Shown here: in pieces, positions 18,001 to 25,122 of the stretch
Layout of the letters: the number at the start of each line of letters is the position of its first letter
Position numbering within the stretch: the stretch's first letter is position 1
DNA from: Burkholderiaceae bacterium
Lineage (GTDB): Bacteria; Pseudomonadota; Gammaproteobacteria; Burkholderiales; Burkholderiaceae_D
Length of the DNA stretch: 64,000 nucleotides
Direction: 5' to 3'
Assembly: GCA_004298905.1 (NCBI GenBank)
Contig: SCTK01000014.1
Coordinates: 62,001-126,000, forward strand
Program-made: the position numbers and the translations under genes
Notes under the pieces: model-generated
The model's input: the letters and a program-made list of their open reading frames with translations, nothing else
The model's database searches: none
Told to the model about the DNA's origin: nothing

Positions 18001-18059
18001 AAAGACCCTGCGCATTTGCAAAAAAAAACAAATGCACTCCGGTACTTTTGATCTGCTGA
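18001..18059. repeat. Direct repeat A beside the DUF3943 gene
   Basis: AAAGACCCTGCGCATTTGCA...CACTCCGGTACTTTTGATCTGCTGA, directly abutting the stop of the DUF3943 gene. A second copy (53 bases, same orientation, about 45 matching positions allowing a gap) lies at 19798-19850. Copy A also contains GCATTTG and CAAATGC arms around an A-run. Confidence 0.85.
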
Positions 18060-19463
18060 TTAGCGCCAGTCGACGGTTCCGAAGCGCTGATGACTAAGCA
18101 GCGTGTAGTAAATTCCGATCGTGCCGCGCGTCTGAGTCTGATCGGCAAGATTAGGATAGCTGGCATCGCGGCGCGACCAGAGATAGCGCAGTGAAATGGC
18201 ATGTTGTTGATGCACCCGCAGCGTGAATGAGAGATCGACACGGGCGATGTTATCGTAGCCTTTGCCGGCAACTCCGCCGACGAAATAGTCACGCGCCGTT
18301 AAATCAAGTGAGGCCCGCTCGCCCAGAATCAGGCGCAAGGCGAGAAGTGCTTGCGGCGTTCTGCCGTAATGGTAGTCCTGGTCGCTAGTGCCACGCATTG
18401 TGCCGACGGCAGAGTAGCCGAGTCCCAGCATGCCGGTTCCCTGCAAGACGATAGCGTCCGACAGCCAGCATTGTGCGGTGGTGCCGAGCGATAGGGCGGT
18501 CGTTGAGATGCGGAAGATTTGTGGCGAGATGTAATCATAGCTGCCATAAAATCCCCACACGCCACGATAATTATTACCGACCGCATAATCAGTGCCCACC
18601 AGCAACCCACGGACCATGATGTTTTCAAAGATATTGGCGCTGGAACCGGTAGTCTGAAAACTAAAATAATCGAACGGGCGCGTATAGGTGTACCCCGGTT
18701 TTCCCGGCAGCCCGTATTCCATGGAAAAATCCGCGAGCACTTCGTTGCGTTTCACCTGGGTTGAGTTACCTTGCTCATTTTGCAGCGTGCCGCTCAAGCC
18801 GAGATGCAGACGCGCGAAATAGGCCGGATCTCCACTGGCAAAGATCGGTTTGAAACGGTCGCCAAAAGCCAGTCGATTGAAACCCATCGACGGAGAAATA
18901 ACCGCTGCTGTTGTTTCGCGCCAGAACGGTGTCATATCGCTGCGTTCCAGCACCAGATTGGCCATGCGGAATAGCGCCTCACCCAGGAAGGTGCCGCCGA
19001 CGCCGGTGGCGATCTGGTCGTTTTTCGAAGGCGGTGTGCGCTCCCCGGCAATCTCCCATGCGGCGCTACCGGCAAAGCTGTAGCCCAGCGACTCCCAGTA
19101 ATTCAGGCCCGCCGAACGTGCAAAACCGTGATACATCGATCCTTGATAGGGATGGAGGAACTGGTTGATTTTGAAGGGATCGTTGTCGACCACCCAACCG
19201 TTGCGCAAGTTGTGCCGGATGGTCGACAGGTTGGATTTGTAATCGTCGTCGATAAAGTGCCGATTGAACTGATTCAGCAGAAAGTCATAACCCAGAATTT
19301 CAGCAGCGGGGATCGCGTAGCTTTTGGATGATTCTATTTCCGCCAATTTAGGCAGGGATGAATTGTCTGCAGCGCATGCTCGATGGGGTGTGATGAGGCC
19401 AAGCATACAGCCCATGCTGACCAGCGCGATGCGGAATCGACTGTTAGAAACTGCTTCCCTCAT
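18060..19463 (-). CDS. DUF3943 domain protein, putative outer-membrane barrel
   Basis: A 467-residue exported protein. The signal peptide ends near ACAAD (residue 32). The DUF3943 signature is visible: FLHPYQGSMYHGFARSAGLN (about residues 102-121) followed by YWESLGYSFAGSAAWEIAGE. The remainder consists of amphipathic strands (FSFQTTGSSANIFEN, YGSYDYISPQIFRIS), consistent with an outer-membrane barrel. Function is unknown. It is bracketed by the direct repeats at 18001 and 19798, suggesting it was inserted or duplicated as a cassette. Confidence 0.8.
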   Translation of the reverse strand: MREAVSNSRFRIALVSMGCMLGLITPHRACAADNSSLPKLAEIESSKSYAIPAAEILGYDFLLNQFNRHFIDDDYKSNLSTIRHNLRNGWVVDNDPFKINQFLHPYQGSMYHGFARSAGLNYWESLGYSFAGSAAWEIAGERTPPSKNDQIATGVGGTFLGEALFRMANLVLERSDMTPFWRETTAAVISPSMGFNRLAFGDRFKPIFASGDPAYFARLHLGLSGTLQNEQGNSTQVKRNEVLADFSMEYGLPGKPGYTYTRPFDYFSFQTTGSSANIFENIMVRGLLVGTDYAVGNNYRGVWGFYGSYDYISPQIFRISTTALSLGTTAQCWLSDAIVLQGTGMLGLGYSAVGTMRGTSDQDYHYGRTPQALLALRLILGERASLDLTARDYFVGGVAGKGYDNIARVDLSFTLRVHQQHAISLRYLWSRRDASYPNLADQTQTRGTIGIYYTLLSHQRFGTVDWR

Positions 19464-19797: not shown

Positions 19798-19850
19798 AAA
19801 GACTCTGCGCATTTGCAAAAAAATATACTCCGGTACTTTTGATCTCCTGA
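19798..19850. repeat. Direct repeat B beside the mcrC-like gene
   Basis: AAAGACTCTGCGCATTTGCA...ACTCCGGTACTTTTGATCTCCTGA, a same-orientation copy of the repeat at 18001-18059. It ends 15 bases before the stop of the mcrC-like gene, as copy A abuts the stop of the DUF3943 gene. Confidence 0.85.
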
Positions 19851-19864
19851 CTGTGGTGACTTTA

Positions 19865-21130
19865 TTAATTCTTAATTTCTAGTAGAGAAGCAATTTCGCT
19901 GACCATAGCAGCACCAGTTGAAGTCAGATCGCCGGCGATGTTTAATCGATAATGATAAAACTTCGCGCCAGTCGCGATCGAGCCTATATATTCCATACCG
20001 GCATCGTTGTTTAGGGCAGGCGATATCCAGACTCCCACTGGCGCGCGAAGGGCGACGACATGGCTGATGACCTGATACCGATCAGTTTCCTCAATTCTCG
20101 ACTTGTATTTGATCTCGCCGATACCGAGCACCCTGTTGCTCTTTCGGAAAATTAGGTCCGGCTTGATGGGAAAACGTTTATTGTCAAGAAAGAGCGGGTG
20201 CTGGTGCCGCGATATGTTGCCGTCTAGAACTGCTATTTCTCGTTCCCGAAGAGCTATCCGAAAGGTATTGCGAACGAAGCTTTCGAAAATGCTGTCCAAC
20301 GAAAAGAGAAACGAGGGCATTTTGCTGCCCTGTGCTTCATAAGAGAACCCGACTTTTGTGAAGCCTAAAAGCACTGCATATGTAGTGAGGGCGCCGAGAT
20401 ATGCATCCCGAACCCATATAGGTAATGAGGTGGTAAGCGCGTGATCGCCGAACTGCATCCGCGCTGGCGTCACCGAGTGCAATGCATTTAACGCTCCCAT
20501 GAGCAGGCGTCGTTCGTTTTGCCAGCGGTCATTTCGTGGCATCACGCGCATAAAAGCGACGCAGGCTGACTTTATCAATCCGTTGGCATAGAGGTTTGCC
20601 GAAAATGCAAAAGCATCGGACGCCACGCTCACGTCATCCCCTCTTGATAGGTGGTTCGCGACAGTTCTACCGAAATTGACCTTTGGCCTGAAATGCCCTC
20701 TATAAGATTCTTGATAGTAGCCCCGTGCTACACCCCCAGTCAGAATTTCGCGGAGGTAGTGGCAAAAGGCTCGGGCGAGCAATTGATGAGGTGCCGAGAC
20801 ATTTTCGGTTTCATATGACCGTAGCACTGGCAATACCCGGTCATAGGTTTCGTCGGCGACTGCCAGCATTCCCCATAGATTTTTGAGCGGAAACTTTGGT
20901 CGAAGGTTGAGAGCAATACCAGTCGTCAGGGGCAGATAACCGATCAGGCCTAGTGCCCTCAGTTCGACTCCTGAAACCACTTCGCGCAGATCTACAGCAG
21001 ACAGATCACGAGTTTCAGGCAGTAAAAGCGACTGTCCCCGGGAATCAAATAACTCATCTCTAGGAAAGATGCGAGCTTCCCGTTCATGCAGGTCGATGAT
21101 GCGCGTATGCCCGACCTGAAGAGCGGCCAA
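19865..21130 (-). CDS. McrC-like restriction endonuclease subunit
   Basis: A 421-residue McrC-family nuclease that would cut DNA together with the adjacent McrB-like motor. The N-terminal half (GYLPLTTGIALNLRPKFP, then HYLREILTGGVARGYYQ) matches McrC. LDSIFESFVRNTF (about 278-290) is the conserved helix before the catalytic core. The PD-(D/E)xK site is visible as D325 (KPDLIF), E339 and K341 (GEIKYK), so the nuclease looks intact. The stop lies 15 bases beyond a direct repeat. The start is two bases after the mcrB-like stop, so the two are translated together. Confidence 0.88.
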   Translation of the reverse strand: MAALQVGHTRIIDLHEREARIFPRDELFDSRGQSLLLPETRDLSAVDLREVVSGVELRALGLIGYLPLTTGIALNLRPKFPLKNLWGMLAVADETYDRVLPVLRSYETENVSAPHQLLARAFCHYLREILTGGVARGYYQESYRGHFRPKVNFGRTVANHLSRGDDVSVASDAFAFSANLYANGLIKSACVAFMRVMPRNDRWQNERRLLMGALNALHSVTPARMQFGDHALTTSLPIWVRDAYLGALTTYAVLLGFTKVGFSYEAQGSKMPSFLFSLDSIFESFVRNTFRIALREREIAVLDGNISRHQHPLFLDNKRFPIKPDLIFRKSNRVLGIGEIKYKSRIEETDRYQVISHVVALRAPVGVWISPALNNDAGMEYIGSIATGAKFYHYRLNIAGDLTSTGAAMVSEIASLLEIKN

Positions 21131-21132
21131 GG

Positions 21133-22728
21133 CTAAGCTCCTGGAGTGGCGAGAGACGGATTGCCCACTTGATCAACATCATCCCTAGTTTTTAGCAACA
21201 ACTCAATGTCGGCCACCGTTGCCTCAAAGGCTGGCCGATCATGAATAAATGCTCGCCGAAGAGCGAGACGGACACGCCCGATCCAAACTGCAGCCAAATC
21301 ATCTATCGACCGAACCCGAAGGAAATTGGTGTGACCGAAACCGTGAGGGAACGCTTGGTTCAGGATTGTGAATACCTGCACAGTTCGATTGACTATCCCT
21401 TCTTCGACTTTTTTGTCTTGCAAATAGCTTTTGAGAAAGACGCCATCAGGCTCAAGTTCGATAACCCAAAACCGGCGTAGTAACGCGTCGTCCAGATCAG
21501 TCACGGAACGGTCGTAAGGATTAGCGGTGGCAACAATGATCAGATTCTTTGGCAGCATCGCAGGCTTGCCGGAGAACGGCAAAATGAACTCACGCCCACG
21601 GTAATCCACTTCCAGATATGTGAGGACCTCACCGAATATTCGTGCTACGTCTCCACGATTTAGTTCGTCGATAACAGCAACGTAATTGTCCTCTGGATTT
21701 CCGGCAGCTAACTTAGCAAAATTTAAAAATAGTCGCGACGCGAGGTCATACTTAACCCCTGAACCATCAGCCGACTGGATCGGACGAAAGCCTTCAATGA
21801 AGTCGTCGTAGCCGATAGCTGGATGAAACTGTAGAAAAAGGATTTTCGCGCTGTCGTCTTTGGTAAGACTCTTAGCCAGCGCGCGAGCGTAGCTTGTCTT
21901 GCCAGTGCCGGGAGGGCCTGCTAATAAAAAAGCAAGGCTTTCGCCTGCTTGGATAGCAGCGGTAACAGTCGCGAAGACTGGGTCATCAATACTTAGGCCT
22001 ATCAGACTCGTTTCTACAGCCGCTGCGTCCTTGTCATCTGTTACTGGGTTTGCCAGATACGCGACAAGCTTGGGAGCAAGTTGCTGAAGGAATTGCTCGT
22101 TTGAAGGCCTCTCTGAAAGTAGCGATGGCCACGATACTACCGGATTAGATAGCCTGAACCGCCCCCGATATGGAGGCTTGAACTCAGTTAGCTTAAGTTC
22201 TTTTTTTAACAGATGGTCAAACAGGCTTGGCCAATTGGTCACCTCGTCGGGGACCCCTTCGAATGCGAACAGCCAGACCAAGAAATCCTCGAATCGGAAA
22301 GCATGCGGCAGTTCTTCTTCAAACCTAGGCTGGAAGGCGTCGGTGAGTATTGCGATGGCTTTTTCGCCTCCAATTAACCCTTCAAGTCGCATCTCGCGAT
22401 AGCCTCGAGATGAGAATAGATTGCCCCACATTTTGGTATCTTGCCGGATCATATAATCGCCAGCGAAGTCCCCGCGATCCCAATTGATGCCCTTCAGTCT
22501 TGGCCGAAGGAGGTTATTACCATGGGGCATAGGGGGTAAATCGAGGCGTCGACCATTGAAGTATCGATCTAGGAACTGGTCAGTTCCTAGCTTCTTCGAC
22601 ATGTCAACGAGCGCATCAGTGCCGACGTCGTTCGCGGCGAACACGAAGGCAGGAAGCAACCAATTGGCGCTATAGTTTTGTAATTTTTCGATCGCCTGCT
22701 GGATCGTTGGTATGTCAAAGTATCTCAC
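21133..22728 (-). CDS. McrB-like AAA+ GTPase/ATPase restriction subunit
   Basis: A 531-residue motor subunit. The AAA+ core has Walker A GPPGTGKT (271-278), the McrB-family YDDFIEGFRP (307-316), Walker B AVIDELNRGD (351-360) and TANPYDRSVTDLD (401-413) with RR at 418-419. The E. coli family motif MNTADRS is here ATANPYDRS. The N-terminal 230 residues do not resemble the methyl-cytosine-binding DUF3578 of E. coli McrB and presumably read a different target. Base composition is low in GC for this genome (26 of 60 in line 21661). It lies between the mcrC-like and methyltransferase genes with gaps of two and three bases. Confidence 0.88.
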   Translation of the reverse strand: MRYFDIPTIQQAIEKLQNYSANWLLPAFVFAANDVGTDALVDMSKKLGTDQFLDRYFNGRRLDLPPMPHGNNLLRPRLKGINWDRGDFAGDYMIRQDTKMWGNLFSSRGYREMRLEGLIGGEKAIAILTDAFQPRFEEELPHAFRFEDFLVWLFAFEGVPDEVTNWPSLFDHLLKKELKLTEFKPPYRGRFRLSNPVVSWPSLLSERPSNEQFLQQLAPKLVAYLANPVTDDKDAAAVETSLIGLSIDDPVFATVTAAIQAGESLAFLLAGPPGTGKTSYARALAKSLTKDDSAKILFLQFHPAIGYDDFIEGFRPIQSADGSGVKYDLASRLFLNFAKLAAGNPEDNYVAVIDELNRGDVARIFGEVLTYLEVDYRGREFILPFSGKPAMLPKNLIIVATANPYDRSVTDLDDALLRRFWVIELEPDGVFLKSYLQDKKVEEGIVNRTVQVFTILNQAFPHGFGHTNFLRVRSIDDLAAVWIGRVRLALRRAFIHDRPAFEATVADIELLLKTRDDVDQVGNPSLATPGA

Positions 22729-22731
22729 TAC

Positions 22732-23751
22732 TTACTCCGACTTCGCTCGGCCTGGTTTGCGGAAATTTTCCTTATTGCCTGCCCAGCTTGACCAGATGGC
22801 GGAGGGCTGCTGAATACGCTTTAGTAAGTGAGGCCACGCAAGGGCTTGGTGTCCGTCCGCCTCTAGGGCAGATTGGATGTAGTCTACATAGTCCGCGCTC
22901 ATGTCGATCCCCACCACGTTGCGGTCATGTGCTAACGCTGTGAAGATCGTAGTGCCACTACCGACGAATGGGTCGAGCACGTGTCCGCCGACCGGACTAC
23001 CGGCCTCAATACACCGACGCACTAACTCAGATGGGAACGCCGCGTTGTGGTTGGCACGACGGCTGCGCTCAATTGGAATATTCCAGACATCCTCCTCGAC
23101 GAGCATCGAGCGGTCGAAACTATAAAAGCGGCTTTTTGTGAACATGAAGACAAATTCGTATTGCCGATGTGGCCGGTCACGTGCAGTCGGCTCGACGAAG
23201 GCGTTGCAGCGGTTCCAGATGATTGAGCTTCGCAGCGTCCACCCACGCGCCTGCATTGCGAATGCGACTTTCCATGGGATGCCAATCATGCTCTTTTTGG
23301 GGATGTCCCATCCGCTAACGTCGACTGAGCGGACTTTGGTGCGTAGAAAATTCCGTGATGAGCACTTTGGGTCACTACCATGAGGTTGTCCATTGCCCGA
23401 ATAATAGGTGTCTCCGATATTTAAGAAAAACATCCCCTCCGGATGCAGTGTCCGTTTCACTTCATCAAAAACTTCCATGAGTTTCTCGATATAAGTCTCG
23501 ACGGATTCTTCGTGCCCTAGCTGTCCATCATATCCGTAGTCGCGCACCCAGTAGTAAGGCGGCGAAGTAACGGCGACGTTGAAAGTGTCGGATGGCAGCT
23601 GGCGCAGCGATGCCGCCGAGTCACCTTGAATTAATCCCGCAACATGGTGGGCACCAGTCATGAAGCTAGATCGATCTGACGGAAGTAATAATTCCGACTG
23701 ATGATTTTTCTTGCTGCGAACGATCTCGGCAGCACCAGTTTTTGCGTTCAT
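22732..23751 (-). CDS. DNA methyltransferase, probable N4-cytosine type
   Basis: A 339-residue S-adenosylmethionine-dependent DNA methyltransferase. The catalytic motif IV TSPPYY (residues 62-67) is near the N-terminus and the cofactor motif DPFVGSGTT (260-268) is near the C-terminus, the beta-class order. TSPPY rather than DPPY favours N4-cytosine methylation over N6-adenine. The target-recognition region lies between about 120 and 240. It is first in a three-gene unit with mcrB-like and mcrC-like genes, implying that it protects host DNA from them. Confidence 0.9.
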   Translation of the reverse strand: MNAKTGAAEIVRSKKNHQSELLLPSDRSSFMTGAHHVAGLIQGDSAASLRQLPSDTFNVAVTSPPYYWVRDYGYDGQLGHEESVETYIEKLMEVFDEVKRTLHPEGMFFLNIGDTYYSGNGQPHGSDPKCSSRNFLRTKVRSVDVSGWDIPKKSMIGIPWKVAFAMQARGWTLRSSIIWNRCNAFVEPTARDRPHRQYEFVFMFTKSRFYSFDRSMLVEEDVWNIPIERSRRANHNAAFPSELVRRCIEAGSPVGGHVLDPFVGSGTTIFTALAHDRNVVGIDMSADYVDYIQSALEADGHQALAWPHLLKRIQQPSAIWSSWAGNKENFRKPGRAKSE

Positions 23752-23878
23752 TATCTAACCTCTGAGATAAATAAAAATTCACACTCCAAATCCTTGGAGG
23801 GTCCGCGCAAGATAGCCAGAACCATTAGTTGGATATGCCTGAATACGCAACTGTAACTTGAGAAACAATAACAGCAAA

Positions 23879-23909
23879 ACACCCTGCAGGGGAGGCTCCC
23901 GCAGGGTGT
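23879..23909. terminator. ftsZ-distal hairpin
   Basis: ACACCCTGC and GCAGGGTGT form a 9-bp stem around an inner GGGAGGCTCCC. On the minus strand, 23 bases after the ftsZ stop, it is followed by TTTTGC; on the plus strand by CTTCTTT. It probably ends the dcw transcript. A sister copy lies at 19671-19707. Confidence 0.7.
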
Positions 23910-23931
23910 CTTCTTTACAGCTACCGCTTGC

Positions 23932-25122
<1,191 letters not shown>

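Follow-up and report, generated by a model that had tools for sequence, protein, structure and literature searches.

A co-inherited methyltransferase, McrB-like motor and McrC-like nuclease from a Burkholderiaceae genome probably form a mobile restriction-modification system

McrBC is the textbook example of restriction that needs methylated DNA. Pairs of McrB-like and McrC-like proteins are also encoded beside DNA methyltransferases, and here we describe such a case on contig SCTK01000014.1 of a Burkholderiaceae bacterium (assembly GCA_004298905.1), in a stretch of 64,000 nucleotides that we call the window. On its minus strand lie genes for a methyltransferase (M, 22732-23751), an McrB-like AAA+ motor with an N-terminal domain (B, 21133-22728) and an McrC-like PD-(D/E)xK nuclease (C, 19865-21130). 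An initial annotation, made from the letters of the window alone, had described three minus-strand genes packed with gaps of 2-3 bases, and its coordinates and frames proved exact: M (339 amino acids) starts with ATG, B (531 amino acids) with GTG and C (421 amino acids) with TTG, with 3 nucleotides between M and B and 2 between B and C. This spacing suggests that M-B-C forms one operon. We put at roughly 80% the probability that M-B-C is a self-contained mobile restriction-modification system, in which an McrBC-type nuclease with its own methyltransferase cuts unmodified DNA.

By analogy, M-B-C is best read as working like PcaI (PcaRCI) of Pectobacterium carotovorum RC5297, which according to the accessible part of its description consists of one cytosine-C5 (C5) methyltransferase for CCNGG with the proteins PcaIA and PcaIB, and defends the cell in vivo from plasmids and phages that lack methylation (PMC8989522). 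As far as that account goes, the likeness covers a single methyltransferase beside one protein like McrB (PcaIA) and one like McrC (PcaIB), an McrB partner with an unrelated DNA-binding domain, and a sparse distribution thought to reflect mobility, as for the window system. M.PcaI, however, is described as a Dcm-like C5 enzyme, whereas M belongs to PF01555 and is not Dcm-like; PcaIB is described as McrC-like in its nuclease domain only, with large extensions, whereas the model of C is McrC-like along most of its length. We set PcaI apart from the window system by its description rather than by direct sequence comparison. Bell et al. have also reported that McrBC branches linked to predicted DNA methyltransferases are prevalent and that the association is likely ancestral, deferring its description (PMC11090510). 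Those branches comprise NxxD GTPases with predicted DNA methyltransferases, as in the window; the accessible text of that study does not give the methyltransferase type, the operon or the reader domain. Since PcaI and these branches have already been described, M-B-C is only a variation on a known arrangement. The initial annotation had regarded a single non-C5 methyltransferase as a different pairing, which stands in so far as M is not a C5 enzyme and falls in so far as PcaI already combines a single methyltransferase with McrBC-like genes. What is new here is the probable N4-methylcytosine (m4C) enzyme, a presumed reader domain with no credible sequence match in Pfam or the PDB, and a coherent mobile family; the principle was already known. 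In a literature search made mostly outside subscription journals and without REBASE, we found no description of a single m4C-type methyltransferase with McrBC-like genes.

LlaI, BsuMI and LlaJI have been grouped as a type II R-like subfamily in which, by the accessible text, each comes with two methyltransferases of type IIS (PMC2614495), and LlaI is reported to need two methyltransferases (PMC3874153). LlaJI resembles the window system in combining an McrB-like specificity and motor subunit with an McrC-like nuclease beside methyltransferases, in being plasmid-borne and in being blocked by modification (PMC1459862, in the part available); its McrB-like subunit is reported to carry a B3 reader domain (PMC12707154). 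The initial annotation had assigned the locus to the LlaJI/BsuMI type, and M-B-C does have the McrB-like and McrC-like pair beside a methyltransferase. Yet the nuclease of LlaJI is of the RE_LlaJI family (PF09563) and accompanies two cytosine methyltransferases, whereas the window has one methyltransferase, of PF01555, and a nuclease that matches PF10117 alone. Our LlaJI-type control (L111) combines an AAA subunit with two annotated DNA cytosine methyltransferases, of which the one scanned matched PF00145, and its RE_LlaJI nuclease matched PF09563 at 4e-31, while the McrC proteins of three other controls (L112, L113 and L115) matched PF10117 like C. The initial annotation had named C5 enzymes for LlaJI and BsuMI; LlaI, of the same subfamily, uses an adenine-type methyltransferase. 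B itself scored 3e-33 against a DUF3578-containing classical McrB and 4e-33 against Sinorhizobium McrB, compared with 3e-13 against LlaJI R1. The single SPPY methyltransferase and the PF10117 McrC rule out membership of the LlaJI family, and the type assignment was dropped; M-B-C may work like LlaJI, yet it lacks two defining features of that group.

The reference type IV system of E. coli, EcoKMcrBC (NC_000913.3), shares with the window an McrB AAA motor with Walker A, Walker B and NxxD motifs, and a PD-(D/E)xK McrC of PF10117 with the same fold as the model of C. In contrast to the window family, where M is present in 15 of 15 loci, EcoKMcrBC has no dedicated methyltransferase. Its McrB carries a DUF3578-type reader for modified cytosine and the motif MNTADR, whereas B has no DUF3578 match and reads TANPYDR. 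A stand-alone type IV McrBC is disfavoured by the constant company of M.

Co-inheritance of the three genes

Searches with C recovered 15 loci: three plasmid records, ten genome loci and two viral contigs. The genome loci came from scanning 84,980 species genomes for two peptide patterns, which misses members that have lost both, and three loci are identical (L011, L012 and L019, the last a viral contig that matches a Roseibium genome locus), so that 13 of the 15 are distinct. Named hosts were Pseudomonas borbori, several Alphaproteobacteria and a metagenome-assembled genome of Latescibacterota; identities to the window proteins were 69-85% for M, 55-68% for B and 43-67% for C. The order M-B-C on one strand, with M and B immediately preceding C, was kept in every locus, and such constancy among homologous loci excludes chance. 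The distance matrices of the three proteins across 11 members were also correlated (r 0.73 for M-B, 0.89 for M-C and 0.87 for B-C), at values that none of 2000 permutations reached.

Target recognition in beta-class methyltransferases lies in the stretch that matches residues 119-234 of M. This specificity half was the most conserved part of M, with a mean pairwise identity of 0.91, compared with 0.83 for residues 38-118, 0.76 for residues 235-300 and 0.51 for the tail. The N-terminal domain of B was conserved nearly as well as the motor (0.64 vs 0.68 mean identity). Conservation of both regions is what would be expected if both must keep one site, and by simple inference a single recognition sequence would be common to the whole M-B-C family.

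The family is sparse. In a partial sampling of genomes (274 of the class, 398 of the phylum and 60 relatives), the system was present in one class genome and in one relative, each time the window's own genome. None of 50,697 phage records contained a homologue of C, and the two viral contigs were found by an alignment scan after a single-sequence scan with C had found none. Within the source genome (2.48 Mb, 26 contigs), C and B each gave a single match at the thresholds used, and the M search added just two further weak matches of 28-30% identity. M-B-C is probably a horizontally moving unit.

In the searches made, one of which is known to miss members, no relative more than 60% identical to M turned up outside an M-B-C unit. 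An M relative occurs in 201 plasmid records, with more than 60% identity in three, all of them M-B-C plasmids, and at 78 viral loci, where one exceeds 54%, on the M-B-C contig L018. The viral scan used the patterns TSPPYYW and DYGY[DE]GQ; it missed the M of L019 (TSPPYFW, DYGYDDQ) and is therefore not exhaustive. Two of the 398 phylum genomes passed E 1e-45 for M, namely the window's own and one with a relative of 42% identity, which is followed by a gene for a putative nuclease of 339 amino acids. The initial annotation had raised the question of whether homologues of M mostly occur without mcrBC; in the searches made, this turned out not to be so for relatives above 60% identity, and distant relatives have other partners.

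Relatives about 40% identical to M adjoin XcyI-family endonucleases in three of the five plasmid loci viewed (L021, which we take to be Pac25I, L122 and L123), and the other two (L121 and L124) have no annotated nuclease next to the M relative. The partner in such systems is a single XcyI-family endonuclease, whereas the partner of M is a motor pair; the M family thus does serve ordinary restriction systems. Other distant relatives, of 38-50% identity, stand beside motor genes. In L022 (3839-8845) the M relative is followed by an AAA motor and a DUF2357/PDDEXK_7 protein, and in L020 (4064-8716) by an AAA motor and an unassigned 669-amino-acid protein; in L030 (4896-9093) an AAA motor and a DUF2357 protein (weak match) lie beside the M relative on the opposite strand. 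These three loci are apparently further methyltransferase-motor-nuclease units that arose as independent pairings, and AAA-type genes also lie near an M relative in L027 and L029. Three viral contigs, L024 (4983-5798), L025 (5043-5861) and L026 (4980-5810), carry M relatives that are 52-54% identical where they match, and no motor gene was seen close to them. When aligned, the L024 and L025 proteins have much of the M specificity half in common, and such stand-alone enzymes could shield phage DNA from M-B-C-like systems.

Methyltransferase, motor and nuclease

M carries TSPPYY at residues 62-67 and DPFVGSGTT at residues 260-268, the motifs by which it had first been recognized; motif IV thus stands ahead of motif I, which is the beta-type order. 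It matched the Pfam family N6_N4_Mtase (PF01555) at 1e-39 and the PADLOC model MTase_II (PDLC03387) at 5e-77. Its best relatives in the PDB were the putative methylase 2zie (3e-19) and 8s9m, a 'DNA cytosine-N4 methyltransferase' (4e-17), followed by weaker matches to adenine enzymes and to M.PvuII (1boo, 2e-5). There was no match to the C5 methylase domain of Pfam at E values up to 1. TSPPY[YF] and DPFxGxG were present in all 11 family M proteins. SPPY in motif IV is the usual sign of m4C enzymes, and by this family rule M probably modifies cytosine N4. That M instead makes N6-methyladenine (m6A), a variant that would leave the rest of the mechanism the same, is in our judgement unlikely: PF01555 spans both activities and several adenine enzymes are among the NCBIfam and PDB relatives, but the motif is not the [DN]PPY form in any of the 11 members, the closest named PDB relatives after the putative methylase are cytosine-N4 enzymes, and the XcyI-type systems with relatives of M act on CCCGGG, a site without adenine.

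The McrB-type motor of B occupies residues ~235-515 and matched the AAA chains of E. coli McrB in the PDB at 5e-32 and AAA_5 of Pfam at 3e-14. Walker A is GPPGTGKT (271-278) and Walker B is VIDELNR. Residues of Walker A (GPPGTGK), Walker B and NxxD are invariant across the 11 members, in keeping with the McrB-like motor with intact Walker motifs of the initial annotation. The sensor motif is TANPYDR, where McrB has MNxxDR: TANP[YF]DR was present in all eight family members aligned and MNTADR in six McrB controls, so that the family departs from the MNxxDRS consensus. Pairwise and profile scores suggest that the motor is nearer to classical McrB than to LlaJI R1. In a tree of AAA domains the window family formed one supported clade of eight rows (98/99); the tree, in which long branches abounded, did not settle where this clade branches with respect to classical McrB and LlaJI.

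The presumed site reader is the N-terminal domain of B (residues 1-235, 22024-22728 on the minus strand), which has the conserved core QDTKMWGNLFSSRGYREM. Residues 1-225 had no credible Pfam match in the 11 members (best E 0.03, below the cut-off of the Pfam family concerned), and the domain had no match in the PDB by sequence. The DUF3578/MrcB_N reader in particular gave no Pfam match in the 11 B proteins at the sequence level, whereas the one control scanned, the McrB of L115, matched PF12102 at 8e-45. Pfam gave no B3 match in B and none in the LlaJI-type control either, so that this test has no power. An AlphaFold model of the domain reached a mean pLDDT (predicted local distance difference test) of 79.8; the five models ranged from 79.8 to 41.5, and two of them were confident. 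Foldseek returned nothing below 0.001 for this model, and a second fold search gave weak matches, mostly to winged-helix regulators (MarR, CRP and PadR; best Z 4.3), with some ribosomal proteins at the same level (Z at most 4.3). B3, YTH, EVE, SRA and DUF3578 were not among the best 50 matches listed in either fold search, which excludes none of them. The winged-helix likeness of the model is a hint, not an assignment.

C matched PF10117 ('McrBC') at 5e-18 and no other Pfam family, completing, with PF01555 for M and AAA_5 for B, the Pfam search suggested in the initial annotation. The nuclease residues named there, D325/E339/K341, were borne out with one variation: D325 and K341 are invariant in the 11 members, and residue 339 is E in ten and D in one. 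Sequence searches of the PDB with C gave nothing significant, as a single sequence or as a profile, and PADLOC gave no match. The C profile matched three McrC controls weakly (E 7e-9, 1e-4 and 3e-3) and LlaJI R2 not significantly (0.43). The model of C (mean pLDDT 78.7; remaining four models 68 to 52) aligned with T. gammatolerans McrC at Z 24.3 and a root-mean-square deviation of 3.8 over 343 residues (Foldseek E 4e-15), and with E. coli McrC at Z 16.9 over 288 residues. Foldseek also found the YdjA-YdiS model 9a5m, presumably the BsuMI proteins, at 5e-7. As modelled, C has the McrC fold.

Proposed mechanism and alternatives

Modification-blocked restriction is the best reading of M-B-C because M accompanies B-C in all 15 loci and close M relatives were not found alone in the searches made; the initial annotation had likewise held that the locus is probably not a classic type IV McrBC. 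By analogy, the in vivo precedent of PcaI counts for this reading as well. M would methylate one recognition sequence, probably at cytosine N4, wherever it occurs in the DNA of the cell, and the N-terminal domain of B would read the same sequence when unmethylated, so that methylation would block rather than trigger cutting. B would assemble into an AAA+ ring and move DNA by nucleotide hydrolysis, probably of guanosine triphosphate (GTP). C would then bind the B ring and use its PD-(D/E)xK site to cut; the trigger may, as in McrBC, be an encounter of two complexes.

A different arrangement, which we also think improbable, is a type IV system with a bodyguard, in which B-C cuts modified DNA (for example 5-methylcytosine or 5-hydroxymethylcytosine) and the m4C made by M protects overlapping host sites or tunes expression. 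The PF10117 membership of C and the best scores of the B motor with classical McrB would fit such a system, as would the methyltransferase genes near some ordinary McrBC loci, but the linkage of M is direct in 15 of 15 loci and its specificity half is near-invariant in the 11 members. The N-terminal domain of B, without a sequence match and with weak, mostly winged-helix fold matches, could also be a modification reader, as winged-helix domains are reported to be able to sense m6A (PMC11037411, in the part available); none of the 11 members, however, matched MrcB_N/DUF3578, as one classical McrB control does. Moreover, E. coli McrBC is reported to act on cells with M.PvuII, so that pairing a modified-cytosine reader with an m4C enzyme could be hazardous, depending on the site (PMC2614495). 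Less probable still is a selfish plasmid addiction cassette kept by post-segregational killing with little role in defence, which would suit the occurrence on three plasmids and two viral contigs (one identical to a Roseibium genome locus) and the sparseness in genomes, but the three reading frames and the catalytic residues are intact and conserved, and the idea is compatible with restriction since addiction needs restriction.

Several points weigh against modification-blocked restriction by M-B-C. We found no methylome, cleavage or restriction result for any member; the step from SPPY to m4C follows a family rule and not an assay; and the N-terminal domain of B, whose best fold match reached Z 4.3, may read either sequence or modification. 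Counts of palindrome avoidance (Markov expectation; window, three plasmids and ten loci) yielded no recognition site, just a general shortage of palindromes in which CCCGGG (72 observed vs 98.6 expected) was not outstanding. Methyltransferases also lie near other McrBC-like loci among the six controls viewed: in L113 the McrB-like gene is closely preceded by genes for a site-specific methyltransferase and a helicase, in L115 an S-adenosylmethionine-dependent methyltransferase is encoded on the opposite strand ~1.7 kb past mcrC, and there are EcoKI hsdS and hsdM near mcrBC in L116 (E. coli K-12). In L112, L118 and L119 there was no methyltransferase in the annotated stretch, the plasmid gene tables being incomplete. 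A methyltransferase near McrBC is thus not rare alone, and what marks the M-B-C family is a constant, directly adjoining single gene.

Described properties of the relatives add to these points. E. coli McrB is reported to accept m4C next to a purine (PMC7680126), and E. coli McrBC to lower the establishment of plasmids with M.PvuII (CAGm4CTG) about ten-thousand-fold while tolerating M.BamHI (GGATm4CC) (PMC2614495). An McrB-type motor beside an m4C enzyme would, by this analogy, need a changed reader or a site beyond its reach: the M-B-C reader should ignore or be blocked by the mark, or the site should fall outside the RmC rule. Together with the missing DUF3578 match of B at the sequence level, this is also an indirect argument for modification-blocked restriction. 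LlaJI R1 and R2 are reported to show no GTPase activity or cleavage in vitro (PMC1459862, in the part available), so that for relatives with a methyltransferase the motor-cutter mechanism is a proposal.

As a tentative account of its origin, M-B-C may be a classical-branch McrBC that became modification-blocked by a reader swap, gaining a new sequence-reading N-terminus and a single m4C methyltransferase. The same M lineage may have recruited motor-nuclease pairs repeatedly (of PF10117 type here and of DUF2357 type in L022 and L030), in addition to XcyI-type endonucleases.

Genomic setting and meaning for the family

The M-B-C island lies between an ftsZ open reading frame (23932-25122) and a DUF3943 gene (18060-19463), and its GC content is 0.50-0.52 vs about 0.55-0.63 in the flanks. 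Terminator-like stems stand close to both island ends, and the strong one after ftsZ (23876-23912, minus strand; a 15-pair stem, then a T-rich tail) sets the M-B-C operon apart from the upstream division genes. The M leader holds a small inverted repeat, CTCCAA-GGAT-TTGGAG (23784-23799, minus strand; 6-pair stem), which was among the terminator-like sites listed and is a possible candidate operator for M. In a check for insertion by duplication, no long direct repeat flanking the island was found. A direct repeat of 53-59 bp with 83% identity (18001-18059 and 19798-19850) brackets the DUF3943 gene, and one of its copies is immediately downstream of the C stop codon. The usual neighbour of ftsZ is lpxC. 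Here lpxC is not next to ftsZ and sits on the same contig ~40 kb before the window start (C4:20278-21093); the end of the division cluster is rearranged, and with lpxC that far outside the window the lost ftsZ-lpxC order is not explained by the M-B-C island alone.

Two features of the other loci concern expression and movement. Leader words before M are clade-specific, with a GAAAAACGTCGTTTTTC-like near-palindrome in L009, L010 and L018 and a GTTCTTGTTATGTTC-like word in L007, L013, L014 and L015, and these are possible candidate operators or promoters. Shared leader motifs as a recognition site or operator of the family were rejected and not used, the words being clade-specific only and having no control. 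Each of the three plasmids also carries a gene of the recombinase family at most ~1 kb away from M-B-C (L005, 8263-8808; L006, 4635-5198; L007, 9653-10210); these genes are 39-53% identical to one another and may be a means of movement or serve plasmid resolution.

In every locus found, the M-B-C family has a motor and nuclease of classical appearance, yet its methyltransferase is a single m4C-type enzyme and its reader domain is not the classical one. This makes it a clean system in which to ask how a motor nuclease switches from modification-dependent to modification-blocked restriction. The family offers a compact, mobile and probably sequence-specific motor nuclease of one uniform specificity, and given that uniformity, one methylome would probably assign the whole M-B-C family.

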